From: a virus
Length of the DNA: 45,530 bases
Strand: one strand, 5' to 3'
Virus record (IMG/VR): IMGVR_UViG_3300042516_004449
Coordinates: 1 to 45,530 of that record
Program-made: the position numbers and the translations under genes
In this document: positions 22,065-33,873 of the stretch, one piece after another
Position numbering within the stretch: the stretch's first letter is position 1
Layout of the letters: every line of letters begins with the position of its first letter
Notes under the pieces: generated by a model
What the model was told of the DNA's origin: nothing
Databases searched by the model: none
What the model saw: only the letters and a program-made list of their open reading frames with translations

Positions 22065-23393
22065 TCACACGAACGCCACGTCGGACGCGAGCAGGAGTTC
22101 GTGGACGGCCCAGACGAGCGCGTCGAGGCGGTCGGGCGATCGCTCGCCGGCGAGGCCGGTGAACGAGGTGAGTTGCTTCTCCAGCGAGCGGAACGTGCCG
22201 ACGTGGAACACGCGCGGGTCACGGTGCGGCGTTCGCTCGTAGAGCGCGGACACCGGCTCCGCTCGCGCGCGCTTGCCTTGCGCGGCGCGCACGGTGCGGA
22301 CGTGGGCGAGCGGCGACACCGATGCGATCGTCTCGCTCACCATCTCGCCGCCGTTGTTGACCTCGGCGACGATGCAATCGGCGCGATGCTCCTCGTACGC
22401 GTCGACCGCGCGCTGCGCCCATCCTCGCGGCGGCAGCTTGCAGGACAGGTCGTCGAGGACGTACGCGCACCCGTCGACGCCGAGGCCGACGACGACGATG
22501 CCGGTCTCGTCGGAGTGCGTCGACGACGTCGCCGCCGGGTCGACGCTGACGACGACGCGCGAGAGTTCGGGCGCGGCCTTCACGCGCACGGCGTCGATCG
22601 TCGTGCTCGTCCAGAGCGCACCCTCGACGTCGTCGAGGAGTTCGGCTTCGATCTCCTGTCGACCGAGTCGCGTGCCTTCGTAGGTCTCGACGAGCTTCGC
22701 GAAGAACGACGGATCGAGATTGTCGCGGTTCGCGTAGCTGCTGCCGGTCGTCGTTGACGTCGACGGTGCGGCGCGGAGAGCGCGCAGCGTGTCGATCGGT
22801 CGCGGCGTCGTCGTGACGATCGCGCGCGGCGGTGAGCCGTCGGGCGCGGTGAGACGCAGGCCGAGGTCGAGGTTCGCGAGCAGTTCGTCGCGCGTCGTCG
22901 GCTTCCACGCGGCGAGTTCTTCCAGCCATGCGGTGTCGTGCTGCGGACCACGCGCGGCGTTCGGGTCGTCGCTGGAGAAGATCGTGGCAGTCGCTCCGCC
23001 GGGCCACGTCACGCGACGCTTCGACGGCTCGAAGTGCGGACGCCCGCGCGGATCACTCGTCGCGAGGATGCCAGCAGGACCGAGAACCATGACGTCGCGA
23101 GCGTCGCCGGCGTCGCGCGCGGCGAGGGCGATGTACCTCGCTTGCTTCGACCTCACGCGCTCGTGCAGCCACTCCGCGCCCGTCCTCGTCTTGCCGAACC
23201 CGCGCCCCGCCATGACGAGCCAGAAGCGCCACGCGCCCGGCGGCGGTCGCTGCTCCGGTCGCGCCCAGAACGGCCACGCATGACGGAGGCGCGCGCAGGT
23301 CGCAGGACCGAGGCGACGCAGGAGCGCGCGTCGATCGGCGTCGTCGAGAGCGAGCAGGCGCTCGCGAAGCGCGGCGAGGTCGTCGGCTCTCAT
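22065..23393 (-). CDS. terL: Terminase large subunit, 442 residues
   Basis: ATP-driven DNA packaging motor. The N-terminal ATPase has Walker A GRGFGKTR (63-70) and Walker B with catalytic Glu in DTAWLEELAAW (153-163). The C-terminal RNase H-like nuclease has Asp285 in VVVSVDPAATS, Glu344 in CIVAEVNNGGE and Asp424 in SPDRLDALVWA. The start MRADDLAALR overlaps the small subunit stop (ATGA), so the longer upstream extension in the same frame is not used. The length is typical of compact terminases of the Terminase_6 type. It works with the small subunit and the portal; here the portal is 6 kb away behind an appendage block. Confidence 0.96.
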   Translation of the reverse strand: MRADDLAALRERLLALDDADRRALLRRLGPATCARLRHAWPFWARPEQRPPPGAWRFWLVMAGRGFGKTRTGAEWLHERVRSKQARYIALAARDAGDARDVMVLGPAGILATSDPRGRPHFEPSKRRVTWPGGATATIFSSDDPNAARGPQHDTAWLEELAAWKPTTRDELLANLDLGLRLTAPDGSPPRAIVTTTPRPIDTLRALRAAPSTSTTTGSSYANRDNLDPSFFAKLVETYEGTRLGRQEIEAELLDDVEGALWTSTTIDAVRVKAAPELSRVVVSVDPAATSSTHSDETGIVVVGLGVDGCAYVLDDLSCKLPPRGWAQRAVDAYEEHRADCIVAEVNNGGEMVSETIASVSPLAHVRTVRAAQGKRARAEPVSALYERTPHRDPRVFHVGTFRSLEKQLTSFTGLAGERSPDRLDALVWAVHELLLASDVAFV

Positions 23394-23917
23394 CGCGTGC
23401 GTCTCGCTGCCATCGCGTCGAGCGCGGACGCAAGAGCCTCGACGGCGTTGTCGAGCGAGTCGTCCTCGCCGCCATCGAACGCGTGGCGACCTGCCTCGAC
23501 GTTGTCCTTCGCCCATCGCGAGCGGTGCCGTCTTTCGAGTCGATGCGCCGCTGCCTTCCAGTCCTTCTCCGCTGCCTTCCCGATCAGCATGACGTCGCGG
23601 GCTTCACTCTCTGCCGCTGCCTTCTCGACGTCGTCGGAGAAGGACACAAGATCGACCTCGTATCCTCGCGGAGTGTATCCCGAAGTCGCGACGAGCCGAC
23701 GCAGTTCTCCGCCTCTTTTCATCCACGAGTAGAACGTATCGCGATGGATGCCGACCGCCTGCGCGGCGACGTCGGGGAAGTTCCCGGCGCGCACGAGGTC
23801 GACGATGCGGCGCATGATCGACGGATCGATCACGAACAACGGCGGACGATGACCAAGCGGCTTCGTCGTCGCCGCTTTCTTCTTCGTCGTCGGCTTGCGT
23901 TTCGATGTGGTAGCCAT
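23390..23917 (-). CDS. terS: Terminase small subunit, 175 residues
   Basis: Located immediately upstream of terL with a four-base overlap. After a Lys/Thr-rich start, residues 30-75 form a helix-turn-helix (VDLVRAGNFPDVAAQAVGIH then RDTFYSWMKRGG), the DNA-recognition part of small terminases. The rest is helical and charged (RDVMLIGKAAEKDWKAAAHR). Its ATG is only 20 bases from the divergent ParB-like gene, so its promoter must overlap that gene. No clear ribosome site precedes the ATG, suggesting weak or leaderless translation. Confidence 0.88.
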   Translation of the reverse strand: MATTSKRKPTTKKKAATTKPLGHRPPLFVIDPSIMRRIVDLVRAGNFPDVAAQAVGIHRDTFYSWMKRGGELRRLVATSGYTPRGYEVDLVSFSDDVEKAAAESEARDVMLIGKAAEKDWKAAAHRLERRHRSRWAKDNVEAGRHAFDGGEDDSLDNAVEALASALDAMAARRTR

Positions 23918-23937: not shown

Positions 23938-24543
23938 GTGAAGAAGAAGCCTAGCACCGACGAAGCGCCTGCGAAGGCGTCGTCGAAGATCAACCCCGCT
24001 CTCGAACCGCTCGCGCGCCCGACGGCTTCGCTGCGTCTCGACGAGCGCAACGCCCGCAAGCACGAGCGCCGGAGCATCGACACGATCAAGACGTCGCTCT
24101 CGACGTACGGGCAGCAGAAGCCGATCGTCGCCCTGACGAGCGGAACCGTCATCGCCGGCAACGGCACGCTCGAAGCGGCGCGAGAACTTGGATGGGAGAG
24201 GATCGCGGTCGTCACGTTCGACACCGAGGACGAAGCGCGCGCGCGCGCGTTTGCCATCATGGACAACCGAACCTCCGATCTCTCGTCGTGGGATCGAGAC
24301 GTGCTCGCCGAACTCCTCGAAGGGATTCCTTCGACGATGGTCGACGCGGTCGGCTTCTCGTCGCAGGAGATCGAGACGTTGCTCGCGCTCTCCGCCGGCG
24401 ATCCAACGGCGGGACTTCCGTCCGACTCGAAGCACGTCGGACAGTTCGGCGTGATCGTTCTCTGCGGAAGCGAGGAAGAACAGCGCGACGTCTACGATCG
24501 GATGATCGCAGAGGGTTTCTCTTGCAAGGTCGTCGCGACCTGA
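23938..24543 (+). CDS. ParB/Srx-fold protein, 201 residues
   Basis: GTG start with GGAGG six bases upstream. Residues 30-115 match the ParB-like fold: LDERNARKHERRSIDTIKTS, then YGQQKPIVALTSGTVIAGNG with TLEAARELGW, and DNRTSDLSSWD. This is the subfamily common in phages next to DNA-modifying enzymes. Some members bind or cut DNA, others use nucleotides. The C-terminal 35 residues (FGVIVLCGSEEEQRDVYDRM) match the short alpha/beta tail often found in these proteins. It is the first gene of the rightward block and 12 bases upstream of the ABC-GNAT gene. Likely it gives DNA specificity or nucleotide chemistry to that cassette; this is inference. Confidence 0.85.
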   Translation: MKKKPSTDEAPAKASSKINPALEPLARPTASLRLDERNARKHERRSIDTIKTSLSTYGQQKPIVALTSGTVIAGNGTLEAARELGWERIAVVTFDTEDEARARAFAIMDNRTSDLSSWDRDVLAELLEGIPSTMVDAVGFSSQEIETLLALSAGDPTAGLPSDSKHVGQFGVIVLCGSEEEQRDVYDRMIAEGFSCKVVAT

Positions 24544-24555
24544 AGGGGTTGATCA

Positions 24556-25722
24556 ATGCTTGTCAGCGTGAGGAACAACTGCACCGACTTCTCGTCGTAC
24601 AGGTCGGCGCGGGTCAAGAGTCTTTTCAACGTCGAGAGCGGAGCGAACTTCTCGATCGACGCGGACCTGCCGATCGAGGACGACGGCTGGTCGATCGGCG
24701 TCGTCGTCGGCCCGAGCGGTTCGGGCAAGACGTCGATCGGCCGTCGCGTGTTCGGCGACGGTGCGATCCACGCGCCGACGTGGCGAGGTGGTGTTCCGAT
24801 CGTCGACGAGATAGCACCGGAGGGGAAGTTCGACGACGTCACGGCGGCGCTTGCCGCCGTCGGCCTTGGCAACGTGCCGTCGTGGCTTCGACCGTACGAA
24901 GTCCTGTCGAACGGCGAGAAGTTCCGCGCCGATCTCGCGCGCCTCGTCTGCGAGAAACCGGAGCGAGTCGTCGTCGACGAGTTCACGTCCGTCGTCGATC
25001 GGCAGATCGCGAAGTTCGGCGCGCTCGCGTTTCAGAAGTCGTGGCGTCGAACCGGCGGGAAGGCCGTTCTCCTGACGTGTCACTACGACGTGCTTGAGTG
25101 GATCGAACCGGACTGGATCTTCGACACGCAGACGAGACTCTTTCAGCGGAGGTCACTTCGGCGACCAAAGTTCGACGTTGAGGTGTTCGCGACAGACTGG
25201 AGTTACTGGCCGCTTTTTGAGCCGCATCACTATCTAAAGATTCCGAAGATGGTTGGGGCGCAGTGCTACGTCGGCGCGGTTGACGGCGAGCCGGTTTGCC
25301 ACCTCGCCGTCGGGACGATGGCACTCGGCAGGGACAGGTTCGAGGCGCGTGCGTGTCGACTCGTCGTCATGCCGGAATGGCAGGGTGCAGGCGTCGGCCT
25401 TCGCTTCCTCGATCACGTCTGCCAGCTTCAGCTTGACGGTCTCGGCAGGACGGGTCGTCGGATCACGACGATGTTTCACACCTCGCATCCCGGCCTTGCC
25501 GCCGCGCTTCGACGGAACAGGAAGTGGGTTCAGGTTTCCGAGAGACTGTTCGCGAACAACGGCTCGACGAACAAGAAGGCCGCCGTCGCCTCGGGGATTC
25601 TGCGCGGTCGCAAGGTCGTCATGGGCGCGAAGCAGGCGGCGGCCGGCGGCTCGTGGTTCGGCGGACACCTTCGCGCGGTGCAGGGGTTTCGCTACATGGG
25701 CGATCGGGGCGGAGAGCGATGA
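24556..25722 (+). CDS. ABC ATPase-GNAT acyltransferase fusion, 388 residues
   Basis: The N-terminal half is a soluble ABC ATPase: Walker A GPSGSGKTS (52-60), signature LSNGEKFRADLAR (117-129, LSNGE for LSGGQ), Walker B RVVVDE (137-142) and a switch His176 in LLTCHYD. No membrane segments are present, so it is not a transporter. Residues about 205-385 are a GNAT acyltransferase, with motif A RLVVMPEWQGAGVGLRFLD (268-286) and the acyl-CoA pyrophosphate loop QGAGVG. The phage Mu DNA modifier Mom is a GNAT-like enzyme, so the domain may act on DNA bases. The ATPase could load or remodel the substrate. The gene overlaps the formyltransferase gene by ATGA. Domain calls are firm; the pathway is inferred. 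Confidence 0.88.
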   Translation: MLVSVRNNCTDFSSYRSARVKSLFNVESGANFSIDADLPIEDDGWSIGVVVGPSGSGKTSIGRRVFGDGAIHAPTWRGGVPIVDEIAPEGKFDDVTAALAAVGLGNVPSWLRPYEVLSNGEKFRADLARLVCEKPERVVVDEFTSVVDRQIAKFGALAFQKSWRRTGGKAVLLTCHYDVLEWIEPDWIFDTQTRLFQRRSLRRPKFDVEVFATDWSYWPLFEPHHYLKIPKMVGAQCYVGAVDGEPVCHLAVGTMALGRDRFEARACRLVVMPEWQGAGVGLRFLDHVCQLQLDGLGRTGRRITTMFHTSHPGLAAALRRNRKWVQVSERLFANNGSTNKKAAVASGILRGRKVVMGAKQAAAGGSWFGGHLRAVQGFRYMGDRGGER

Positions 25723-26384
25723 GGGTTGCGCTGTTCGGGCAACGCTCCTTCGGCGGGGGAGTTCTTCGATCCCTCGTCGAGCGTCACGAGATCGCGCTCG
25801 TGGTGTCGCCGCCGAACGACGAGGACGGACGCGAGGACCGAACGCGTGCGACGGCGTCGCTGCTCGATCTCCCTTGGCGCGCGTCGGGCACCGTCACGCC
25901 CGACGAGTTCCCAGACGACGTCGACCTCATCGTCTGCGCGCACTCGCACGACTTCGTCGGACGGAGAACGCGCGCGCGTTCGAGGTTCGGGGCGGTCGGC
26001 TACCATCCGTCGTTGCTCCCGCTTCACCGAGGACGTGACGCCGTGAGGTGGACGATCCATATGCGGGACCGCGTCGCCGGCGGGAGCGTCTACTGGCTCT
26101 CCGACAACGTCGACGGCGGAGACGTCGCCGCGCAGGAATGGTGCTTCGTTCGTCCCGACGACGACGCGTCGTCCCTCTGGCGTCGAGAGCTTTTCCCGAT
26201 CGGCGTCCGTCTCCTGAACAGGGTCGTCGACGACGTTTCCGCGGGCGTTCTCGTTCGCGTACCGCAGGACGAGGAACTCGCGACGTGGGAACCGTCGTGG
26301 TCGCGCCCGCCGCTTCGACGACCCGAACTCCTCTGCCTACCGGAGCCGGGCAAGCGCGGGCCGGAGTTCGTCAGGACGCGCTAA
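25719..26384 (+). CDS. Formyltransferase-fold enzyme (10-formyl-THF type), 221 residues
   Basis: A single formyltransferase N-domain. Key motif GYHPSLLPLHRGRDAVRWTI (94-113) holds catalytic His96, and NVDGGDVAAQEW (130-141) holds the Asp132 expected by homology. The Asn two residues before His in Met-tRNA formyltransferase and GAR transformylase is Gly94 here. The pattern (YHPSLLP.HRG, then SVYW.SD..D.GD, then RRELFPIGV) most resembles the folate hydrolase/formyl-transfer domain of 10-formyltetrahydrofolate dehydrogenase. It has no tRNA-binding C-terminal domain, so tRNA formylation is unlikely. ATG overlaps the ABC-GNAT stop. It may add or remove a one-carbon group on the product of that enzyme; speculative. 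The terminator at 26425 ends this operon. Confidence 0.85.
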   Translation: MRVALFGQRSFGGGVLRSLVERHEIALVVSPPNDEDGREDRTRATASLLDLPWRASGTVTPDEFPDDVDLIVCAHSHDFVGRRTRARSRFGAVGYHPSLLPLHRGRDAVRWTIHMRDRVAGGSVYWLSDNVDGGDVAAQEWCFVRPDDDASSLWRRELFPIGVRLLNRVVDDVSAGVLVRVPQDEELATWEPSWSRPPLRRPELLCLPEPGKRGPEFVRTR

Positions 26385-26424: not shown

Positions 26425-26461
26425 CGCCCGCCGCGATCCGCACGGCGGGCGTTCTTTTTTT
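26425..26461 (+). terminator. Intrinsic terminator after the ParB/ABC-GNAT/formyltransferase operon
   Basis: Perfect 9-bp GC stem 26425-26433 with 26443-26451, nine-base loop, followed by TTCTTTTTTTT. A classic rho-independent terminator, isolating the three-gene cassette from the genes that follow. Confidence 0.92.
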
Positions 26462-29252: not shown

Positions 29253-30425
29253 ATGAAGAAGATCGCCATCGTCCCGTCGTCTCCGTCCTCGCCGCGTCAG
29301 CGCATGATCGACCTCATCGACGCGCTCAACGCCGCCGTGCTCGAACGCTCGACTGAGTCTCGCCTGCTCGTCGCGTGCGCCATCGCCGGCCACCACGCGC
29401 TCCTGCTCGGTGAGCCCGGCACCGGCAAGTCGTACCTCGCCGAGGCGCTCGCCTCGGCCATCGAGGCGGAGTGCTTCCGCTACCTCATGGGGAAGGCGAC
29501 GACGCCCGACGAGATCATCGGCGCGCCGGACCTGAAGCGATGGAGCGACACCGGCGAACGCGTCCTGCGGACGCGGCACAAGCTGACGTCGGCAGTGATC
29601 GGCTTCCTCGACGAAGTGTTCAAGTCGAACTCGGTCGTCCTGAACTCGATCCTCCGGCTCGTCAACGAACGCACCTACATCGACGACGCCGGCGAGCACG
29701 CGTCGCCGCTGCGCTTCGTCGTCGCGGCGTCGAACGAGACACCGGAGCCGGGCGAGGTTGACGCCTTCTACGATCGATTCCTCGTCGCGCTCTGCGTCGA
29801 GCCGGTCGCCGACCCGGTCAACCGGCGCGCACTCGCTCGTCGCCAGTTGCCGCCGCGTCCGTCGAAGGTCGCGACGCTCGCCGACCTCGACGCCGCTCGC
29901 GCTGAGGCTCGCGCGCTGCCGATTAGTGACGCGGCGATCGACGCGCTCGACGCCGTCGTGTCGTCGCTGCGCTCCAAGGGCATCGTGGTCAGCGACCGGC
30001 GCTTTCAGGCGACGATCGACCTGATGCAGGTATGCGCGTGGCTCGACGGGCACGCCGAAGTCGGCGCGGCCTCGGTCGACGTCGCGCGACACACCGCGTG
30101 GCGACGACTCGATCAGCGCGCCGCCGTCGATGCCGCCGTCGAGGCAGCGATGCCGAAGGTCGACGCGGACCTGACGAAGATCGGGAAGGTGCTCGCCGAA
30201 CAGGACGCCGCGATCCGCGCGTCGTCGACCCTCTCGACGAAGGCCCGCCGGCAGGAGGCACTGGGCGCTGTCGCCGACGTGCTCGACGACCTGACCGCAG
30301 ACCTCGACCGACTCGAACGAGAGAACCCGAACGCGAAGCCGGCGATCGACATCGTCCGCGCCCGCGTGAAGACCACGAACGAAGCCTGCAACGCGGCGAC
30401 GATCGCCGCCTTCCGCACGAAGTGA
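29253..30425 (+). CDS. MoxR-type AAA+ ATPase, 390 residues
   Basis: AAA+ chaperone-like ATPase of the MoxR/RavA class: Walker A GEPGTGKS (53-60), Walker B VIGFLDEVF with Asp120-Glu121, sensor 1 Asn161 in AASNE, and an arginine in YDRF following. A helical lid and a C-terminal helical extension (about 190-390) follow. MoxR proteins assemble as hexamers and act with von Willebrand A partners to remodel or insert metals into target complexes. The VWA gene begins nine bases downstream, so the two almost surely form one complex. Site AAAGGAA precedes the ATG. The target in this phage is unknown. Confidence 0.9.
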   Translation: MKKIAIVPSSPSSPRQRMIDLIDALNAAVLERSTESRLLVACAIAGHHALLLGEPGTGKSYLAEALASAIEAECFRYLMGKATTPDEIIGAPDLKRWSDTGERVLRTRHKLTSAVIGFLDEVFKSNSVVLNSILRLVNERTYIDDAGEHASPLRFVVAASNETPEPGEVDAFYDRFLVALCVEPVADPVNRRALARRQLPPRPSKVATLADLDAARAEARALPISDAAIDALDAVVSSLRSKGIVVSDRRFQATIDLMQVCAWLDGHAEVGAASVDVARHTAWRRLDQRAAVDAAVEAAMPKVDADLTKIGKVLAEQDAAIRASSTLSTKARRQEALGAVADVLDDLTADLDRLERENPNAKPAIDIVRARVKTTNEACNAATIAAFRTK

Positions 30426-32250: not shown

Positions 32251-32570
32251 TGCAGGCGACAGCAGTGATCGCGACGTTGTCGTCGCGCGGATGGAAACGA
32301 ATCGCGGTGAGCGGAGCGAGCGTGATCGCCGTCGTCGACGGCGTTCGCGTCACGATCAGCTTCGACAGCGAGATGATGTTCGACCCCGTCGAGGAGACGC
32401 ACGTCCTGTCGACGTCGATCGTTCTGCTCGTCGACGGCGTCGAGCGCGGACGCATCGAACGCTGGCCGCTCTTGCCCGATGAAGAACTCTCGACGCTCGA
32501 CGAGGCGGCCCGCCTCGCCGAGGCCGTCGTGCGAACAGGCGACGACGTCGCCGTGGAGATGGACCGATGA
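32250..32570 (+). CDS. Uncharacterised protein, 106 residues
   Basis: Begins MQATAVIATLSSRGWKRIAV with a TGATG overlap to the previous gene, and ends in an ATGA overlap with the excisionase-like gene. Beta-rich (VIAVVDGVRVTISFDSEMMF, TSIVLLVDGVERGRIERW), then a helical, acidic end. No family recognised. The tight coupling suggests co-expression with the recombination genes. Confidence 0.6.
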   Translation: MQATAVIATLSSRGWKRIAVSGASVIAVVDGVRVTISFDSEMMFDPVEETHVLSTSIVLLVDGVERGRIERWPLLPDEELSTLDEAARLAEAVVRTGDDVAVEMDR

Positions 32571-32797: not shown

Positions 32798-33873
32798 AGA
32801 TCGAAGACGTCGAGATCGGAGCAAGCGAGGCGGCGGCGGCGATCGGGTTGTCGCCGTACAAGTCGCCGGCGGGACTCTGGGCGGAGAAGATGCGACTCGT
32901 CGAGCGTGGCGGCGGCAACGAGGCGACGTTCCTCGGGACGTTCGTCGAGCACGCGATCGCCGACGCGTTCGCCGCGAGGAACGACGTACGCCCGCGCCGA
33001 TGGGAGACCGTGCGCGGTGTCCTTCGTCCGTGGCTGCGCGTGTCTCCCGATCGCGTGTTGCTTGGCGAGGACCTGTCGCCGGGCTTCCGTCGGGAGCACG
33101 CGCTCGATCCCGGCGAGGCCGTCGTCGTCGAGATCAAGACGACGGGCCTCGCGTCGTACCGGCCACCGTCGAAGCTGTCGGCAGAGTGGGGCGAGGAAGG
33201 CACGTCGGCGATCCCGCCGCAGTACCTCGTGCAGGTGCAGCTTCAGTTGGCGGCGATGCATAAGGTTCTCGTCGACAGCGGTCGCGGCTACGTTACGCGA
33301 GCGATCGTCGCGGCACTGATTCCCGGTCGCGGTCTCGTCGAGTTCGTCGTGCGTTCCGACGAGGAAGTGCAGCAACGCATCCTCGCCGGCCTTGACAAGT
33401 TCGTGAACGATCACCTCGTCGCCGAGGTCTCGCCGGAGCCGGCGAGCGCCGACGACTGGCGCGCGTTCGCGGAGCAGGTCAAGCGCCCGCAAGCGTCGAA
33501 GGAGGTCGTGCGCGTAGAGCCGGGCGACCCGCTCGAAGTGCTGCTCGCGGACTACGTCGCCGCCGACGTGTTCTTCAAGGACGCGGAGGCAGCGAAGGAG
33601 CGGATGCGCGCGAAGATCATCGAGGCCGTCGGAGACCGCTACGGCATCGAGAGCGAACGAGTGCGCGCGACCTACAGCGCAGGCAAGACGACGCCGAAGC
33701 TGTCGCAGGGAGCGTTCGTCGACGAGGTGCTCGCGCTCGCGCGTGCGGAGTCGACGTCAGACAAACCGGAGCGCGCGAAGATGGCGCGCTCGATCCTCGA
33801 CGCTGCGGAGCGCAACACCCGCAGCGTCGTCACCGGACGCGCGCTGCGCGTCACCACGAAGGGAGACGAGTGA
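32794..33873 (+). CDS. YqaJ-type viral exonuclease, 359 residues
   Basis: Nuclease that resects double-stranded ends for phage recombination. The N-terminal GASEAAAAIGLSPYKSPAGLW is the YqaJ/lambda-exonuclease motif, FLGTFVEHAIADAF holds the Glu motif, VVVEIKTTG is the catalytic E-x-K, and QYLVQVQLQLAAMH the final motif of the PD-(D/E)XK core. A C-terminal helical region (about 240-359) is extra. The Bet-like annealase follows with a TGATG overlap, the usual exonuclease-annealase pairing. Confidence 0.9.
   Translation: MKIEDVEIGASEAAAAIGLSPYKSPAGLWAEKMRLVERGGGNEATFLGTFVEHAIADAFAARNDVRPRRWETVRGVLRPWLRVSPDRVLLGEDLSPGFRREHALDPGEAVVVEIKTTGLASYRPPSKLSAEWGEEGTSAIPPQYLVQVQLQLAAMHKVLVDSGRGYVTRAIVAALIPGRGLVEFVVRSDEEVQQRILAGLDKFVNDHLVAEVSPEPASADDWRAFAEQVKRPQASKEVVRVEPGDPLEVLLADYVAADVFFKDAEAAKERMRAKIIEAVGDRYGIESERVRATYSAGKTTPKLSQGAFVDEVLALARAESTSDKPERAKMARSILDAAERNTRSVVTGRALRVTTKGDE

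Follow-up and report, generated by a model that had tools for sequence, protein, structure and literature searches.

In phage Mu, the mom gene is switched on by its activator, Com, and Mom, a methylcarbamoylase (PDB 8bv8), belongs to the GNAT superfamily. A GNAT coupled to an ATPase and acting on a nucleobase amine is likewise known from TmcA, the tRNA(Met) cytidine acetyltransferase. That phages have ParB-terminase modification loci is a concept of Iyer 2013, as relayed in PMC6536676. According to the account in PMC7824862, Iyer 2013 also predicted that a GNAT coupled to an ABC ATPase modifies a DNA base with an acyl group; phage pT24 is given as an example.

Here, we analyzed a window of 45,530 nucleotides, that is, positions 1 to 45,530 of the IMG/VR virus record IMGVR_UViG_3300042516_004449, in which a three-gene cassette combines a ParB-like protein, an ABC ATPase-GNAT fusion (ABC-GNAT) and a formyltransferase-fold enzyme (FT). 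The features of the locus are as follows.

22065..23516, minus strand: terminase large subunit (Terminase_6N 2.6e-14 and Terminase_6C 2.7e-13)
23390..23917, minus strand: putative terminase small subunit with an HTH (HTH_29 below the curated cutoff; identity taken from position)
23938..24543, plus strand: ParB-like protein, 201 aa, GTG start (ORF; phrog_620 9e-33)
24415..24540, plus strand: C-terminal module of the ParB-like protein, approximately aa 160-201 (phrog_28816 match, aa 166-200)
24556..25722, plus strand: ABC ATPase-GNAT fusion, 388 aa (phrog_11143 5e-138; AF2 model pLDDT 89.9)
24556..25161, plus strand: soluble ABC ATPase half (Walker A, signature, Walker B and H-switch motifs)
25162..25719, plus strand: GNAT half (HHY and acyl-CoA motifs; GNAT model; PDB matches)
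25719..26384, plus strand: formyltransferase-fold enzyme, 221 aa (PF00551, Formyl_trans_N, 5.7e-17)
26425..26461, plus strand: terminator-like hairpin (approximately 26425-26451; folding energy) and T tract at the operon end

The terminase genes directly adjoin the left side of the cassette on the opposite strand, in divergent orientation, and com is absent from this locus, which is of the ParB type instead. Elsewhere in the window, a MoxR-type AAA ATPase is encoded at 29253-30425 (bpMoxR, 3.4e-39).

The first-pass annotation of this DNA described three tightly linked genes closed by a strong terminator, and this arrangement proved exact in its coordinates: a 12-base gap separates the ParB-like and ABC-GNAT genes, an ATGA overlap joins ABC-GNAT to FT, and the closing hairpin reaches -27.1 kcal/mol (z -2.45). 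The protein identities were borne out as well by the matches to phrog_620, phrog_11143 and PF00551 and, for the GNAT fold, by structure prediction. Pfam ParB_N matched the ParB-like protein at 0.0024, below the cutoff. In the ABC-GNAT protein, phrog_11143 covers residues 3-383 (4.9e-138); ABC_tran lies over the Pfam cutoff (1.6e-5) and Acetyltransf_7 lies below it (6.5e-5). The ATPase half carries Walker A (GPSGSGKT), signature (LSNGE), Walker B (VVVDE) and H-switch (H176) motifs, and the GNAT half carries HHY (H224, Y226) and the acyl-CoA motif R268-x-V-x-x-P-E-W-Q-G-x-G-x-G. Across 81 diverse sequences, the ATPase motifs and the GNAT motif R-x-V-x-x-P-x-x-Q-G-x-G were invariant or nearly so. 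ABC ATPases crowded the results when the full-length model was used for a fold search, so the GNAT half was modelled separately (pLDDT 86.3), giving VIA Z scores of up to 14.0 against GNATs. Its best Foldseek matches were protein acetyltransferases such as RimI, with TmcA at rank 20. TmcA also joins a GNAT to an ATPase; however, that ATPase is helicase-type rather than ABC and its substrate is RNA, and the resemblance is one of fold only. Tenacibaculum phage pT24 encodes a relative of the window ABC-GNAT with 37% identity (tblastn). In Lactococcus phage P335 (L086 3827-4881), a ParB-like gene is followed by two genes that overlap, one for ABC and one for GNAT; the fusion is therefore split in some Gram-positive phages.

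We compared the locus with 80 relatives from IMG/VR and with loci from GTDB genomes. In many relatives, the ORF upstream of ABC-GNAT encodes approximately 50-60 aa, and its resemblance to the window ParB-like protein is confined to the final ~40 residues of the latter (phrog_28816). In Mu-like phages, this ~45-residue module is encoded by an ORF of its own (~50 aa). By module profile, it lies directly upstream of ABC-GNAT in 78/79 and 79/80 loci of the two locus sets. The ParB N-domain is present in 38/72 IMG/VR and 23/79 GTDB loci, whereas the module occurs without a ParB domain in 34/72 and 55/79, respectively. When the phage collection was searched with the module only (a 49-aa query), four records were returned, all of them ABC-GNAT carriers; the wider distribution of the module rests on profiles, and the 49-aa query by itself reaches few phage records. 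Judged by sequence comparison, the conserved upstream partner of ABC-GNAT is the C-terminal module, with no need of the ParB domain. The earlier annotation had assigned DNA targeting to ParB. Since roughly half of the IMG/VR loci and most of the GTDB loci are module-only, the ParB domain is dispensable and the mechanism cannot have ParB-guided targeting at its core; we therefore ruled out ParB as the core targeting subunit.

The linkage itself extends across phyla for the module, ABC-GNAT and FT. Among loci with room for the gene, FT follows ABC-GNAT in 63/68 IMG/VR and 68/79 GTDB loci, and all 11 of the 11 records in the phage collection with FT at 43% identity or more (at least 43%) also carry ABC-GNAT. 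Thus, the neighborhood that had been noticed in a single sequence does recur, in a gene order common to hundreds of relatives and beyond chance. FT is missing from 5/68 IMG/VR loci, 11/79 GTDB loci and distant relatives, and as it is absent from some loci, it is not essential for some activity. In one locus (L007 4669-7025), the place of FT after a com-linked ABC-GNAT is taken by a large ORF that begins like ParB and by a gene resembling adenine methyltransferases, both identified by eye. In several phage records, the ATPase bears the label of an ABC or siderophore transporter and FT that of PurN, as would be expected of an ordinary transporter or of general metabolic genes with no common function. 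We find this scarcely credible: the model makes the first protein an ATPase-GNAT fusion, and the cross-phylum linkage, together with the slot data given below, argues strongly against it. The transporter and PurN labels are likely misannotations, and the 'tRNA-methyltransferase' label of FT in several Gordonia records, for example Axumite gene 3 (L082 1805-2452), is apparently another.

The module-only loci share an upstream neighbor. Among the module-only loci, com is immediately upstream in 33/34 from IMG/VR and 41/55 from GTDB (74/89), compared with 0/75 loci that have both ParB and module (37+23+15). These Com homologues match Pfam Zn_ribbon_Com (best 6.9e-15). On the ABC-GNAT tree, the com context changes only twice; therefore, it largely reflects one historical move, and the 74 com loci are not independent. 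Against circularity, a separate survey was run with Com only, in 369 + 399 + 268 genomes. Among its 35 confirmed loci, the gene following com was a DNA methyltransferase in 26, an IS-degraded remnant in one and the ABC-GNAT cassette in eight, a share that is no frequency estimate, as the genomes were drawn around ABC-GNAT-bearing ones with the seeds included. A Pfam scan placed 19 of 21 downstream genes in D12, N6/N4 or C5 DNA methyltransferase families, and the remaining methyltransferases were called by eye from their motifs (DPPY, FAGIGG, PCQ). Therefore, with ABC-GNAT or DNA methyltransferases downstream, the com slot is a DNA-modification slot. In Mu-like prophages (L252-L290; e.g., L263 1498-2449), Com homologues sit directly upstream of D12, N6/N4 and C5 DNA methyltransferases. 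Com may thus activate phage modification genes in general, beyond mom.

A direct exchange with Mom was found in two Porphyromonas phages, 015a and 007a, which align at 94.5% identity across 24.1 kb and at 88.6-97.5% in the three aligned segments that follow. Their identity stops at 32360/33072 and restarts at 33133/34959; the swapped segment contains a Mom-family gene in 015a and the module, ABC-GNAT and FT in 007a. Both phages carry Mu-like transposase genes, and the swap site corresponds to the right-end com-mom position of Mu. Mom resembles the cassette in its GNAT superfamily, its right-end site, the com gene upstream in relatives and its replacement in a near-identical phage, although the com-controlled right-end slot holds ABC-GNAT in Mu-like relatives only. 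In contrast to Mom (phrog_1384), the cassette (phrog_11143) adds a fused ABC ATPase, the module and donor genes. The Mom family profile phrog_1384 gave no match to the window ABC-GNAT, whereas it recovered Mu Mom itself at 7.8e-84. A comparison of the two profiles was weak (hhalign P 0.016, 43 columns), with the HY motif in register. Mom 8bv8 was not among the 50 VIA matches listed for the GNAT half, and a phage Mom appeared at rank 48 in a search of a viral structure library. In this comparison, which the first-pass annotation had called for, the GNAT half and Mom share their superfamily, and at the level of sequence profiles homology is only suggestive. The best explanation is that the cassette would work like Mom, by analogy; we do not claim that it is a member of the Mom family. 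Elsewhere, Microbacterium phage Pickles13 (L167 2469-3621) has a ParB-like gene overlapping a Mom-family acetyltransferase gene, a pairing akin to that of ParB and ABC-GNAT.

ParB-type loci also exchange their cassettes. In Gordonia Sourvirus phages, the slot between the ParB N-domain and terminase holds 7-deazaguanine genes (TGT/QueC/QueD/QueE/FolE) in Sour, oxidoreductase and kinase genes in CaiB, described as TET/JBP, pyrophosphorylase and kinase (PMC9302106), and the ParB-module/ABC-GNAT/FT cassette in Axumite and NHagos. The flanks are homologous, and the left breakpoint falls within parB, so that the N-domain is constant and the C-terminal part changes with the cassette. TerL lies within 4.5 kb in 41/61 ParB-type loci. 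The window locus therefore resembles the ParB-terminase modification loci (ParB-MTase, TET/JBP and 7-deazaguanine) in its slot, its ParB N-domain and its cassette swaps among sister phages; however, its enzymes are different, and its terminase genes are divergent rather than downstream.

Judging by this context, we consider that the cassette is a DNA modification system, with a probability of approximately 0.88. It very probably attaches an acyl group to the phage's own DNA and so allows escape from host restriction. Of the original proposal of a ParB-targeted DNA-base acylation system, DNA modification is strongly supported by the context, and ParB targeting had to be given up. Alternatively, the cassette might modify a host protein or RNA, such as RNA polymerase or tRNA (compare phage Rac and TmcA-like GNATs), and thereby aid take-over of the cell. 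The best folds for the GNAT half, RimI-like protein acetyltransferases and, at rank 20, TmcA, would agree with such a target, and a fold is silent on substrate. However, apart from the cassette, only DNA-modifying enzymes occupy the com slot, the cassette swaps with Mom, 7-deazaguanine and TET/JBP cassettes, and it lies beside terminase, which makes this alternative improbable. A defense or anti-defense role, in which the cassette depletes or alters nucleotides or CoA and ParB acts as a nuclease or NTPase in a manner unrelated to virion DNA, appears more improbable still. In phages, ParB-like domains can have NTPase or nuclease activity (PMC5512222; PMC12704722), and 'acr candidate' is the label given to the module in Porphyromonas phage records; against this, the ParB domain occurs in just 23/79 GTDB loci, and the slot evidence (com, the Mom swap, the Sourvirus cassettes and terminase) points to DNA modification. 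In Porphyromonas phage007a, the module at 33155-33283 carries the annotation 'acr candidate protein', and the slot evidence suggests that it is the partner of a DNA-modifying enzyme instead.

The third gene bears on the chemistry. FT matches phrog_9240 at 8e-52, and its nearest PDB relative is the hydrolase domain of 10-formyl-THF dehydrogenase (FDH; 4qpd, 1.5e-44, versus 2.1e-28 for the methionyl-tRNA formyltransferase Fmt); HypX matches less well (4.8e-13). All 58 of the 58 FT sequences keep His96 and Asp132. The Asn of the Asn-His-Asp catalytic set of the amine formyltransferases Fmt, PurN and ArnA was found in 0/58, its position being occupied by Gly in 52 (Gly94 in the window), Ile in four, Ser in one and Ala in one. 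By closest sequence and by His and Asp without Asn, FT fits the FDH hydrolase-domain group. FDH (ALDH1L1), its nearest solved relative, likewise keeps His/Asp and has lost Asn; however, FT is a short stand-alone protein that matches the first ~200 of the ~310 residues of the FDH hydrolase construct. In FDH, Ile occupies the Asn position and formyl is passed to the thiol of phosphopantetheine (PMC4388273; PMC6802093), and the related N-domain of HypX is the proposed maker of formyl-CoA (PMC6802093). Because Gly stands in FT where FDH has Ile, thiol transfer by FT is proposed by analogy only.

In the Jace type, ABC-GNAT is followed by genes for an aspartate decarboxylase (Asp_decarbox 2e-33) and a family III CoA-transferase (CoA_transf_3 2e-8). 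Jace-type loci contain Asp_decarbox in 12/20, CoA_transf_3 in 16/20 and FT in 0/20. Since these genes replace FT in this lineage, the most parsimonious inference is that the accessory genes set or make the acyl-CoA donor used by the GNAT. In a group of loci (L095 5019-8258; also L096-L100), a single operon has one ABC-GNAT copy on either side of the genes for aspartate decarboxylase and CoA-transferase. The first-pass annotation had FT acting in one-carbon capping or trimming, and donor synthesis fits at least equally well, given the loss of Asn in all 58 sequences and the thiol-directed FDH as nearest relative. In the capping scheme, FT would act after the GNAT, which adds an amino-acyl group (e.g., glycyl or beta-alanyl) to the base, and would formylate the free amine. 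FT does have the fold of a 10-formyl-THF enzyme, its optional presence fits a decorating step, and the Jace type yields beta-alanine, an amino acid. However, the missing amine-formyltransferase Asn, the thiol-directed relative and the absence of FT from all 20 loci of the PanD/CoA-transferase (Jace) type lead us to regard capping as unlikely, if still a serious competitor of donor synthesis.

For the donor-synthesis reading, we propose the following putative mechanism. The GNAT half would take an acyl group from a donor of the acyl-CoA type and place it on an exocyclic amine of a DNA base, and the ABC ATPase half would draw on ATP to bind DNA, open it or travel along it, exposing the base. The module would be the obligate partner, present as the C-terminal end of ParB in the window and as a free ~50-aa protein in Mu-like phages, and the ParB domain would be an optional adaptor for cassettes in ParB-terminase loci. 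The third gene would determine the acyl chemistry: in the window type, the FDH-like FT may move formyl from 10-formyl-THF, most simply onto CoA, so that the GNAT would receive formyl-CoA; for the Jace type, a beta-alanyl-CoA-like donor may come from aspartate decarboxylase and the CoA-transferase. The genes, their motifs, their co-occurrence and the slot swaps are observed; DNA as the substrate (from context), the role of the ABC half, the donor and the acceptor base are the parts that we infer. The mechanism as a whole, Mom-like DNA-base acylation with the module, ABC drive and a donor set by accessory genes, seems likely to us, if less so than DNA modification as such. Formyl-CoA as the specific product of FT, by analogy with the FDH group, is a tentative and rather doubtful suggestion. 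Equally speculative is a new hypermodification class for DNA whose donors can be exchanged, in which an ATP-driven GNAT with a small specificity module would add formyl (via formyl-CoA) or beta-alanyl according to lineage. We know of no description of N-formyl or beta-alanyl DNA bases in any phage.

For all three parts together, the first-pass annotation could name no described pathway; this needs amendment, since the ABC-GNAT idea was already predicted (Iyer 2013, as summarized in PMC7824862). The predicted family is the same fused family, pT24 included, with the same predicted role. However, as described in PMC7824862 it is a prediction only, and that description comes without the module, com slot, Mom swap, FDH-like FT or PanD/CoA-transferase; our literature searches likewise found no mention of the module, com slot, Mom swap or donor genes, and no experimental work on the cassette. 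The module, com slot, cassette swaps and donor logic appear to be new. If this model is true, a widespread DNA chemistry with a modular donor supply exists in phages of several bacterial phyla, and com is suggested as a general controller of phage DNA-modification genes, not of mom alone. A decade-old prediction becomes directly testable with existing phages, namely, the Gordonia Sourvirus slot variants, the near-identical Porphyromonas pair (Mom versus cassette) and the Pseudomonas aeruginosa PAO1 phage Komp_PAO1_1. Additionally, a Mom-family gene and an ABC-GNAT gene occur together in one jumbo phage, Aeromonas phage PX29 (GU396103; 36309-36881 and 53332-54027).
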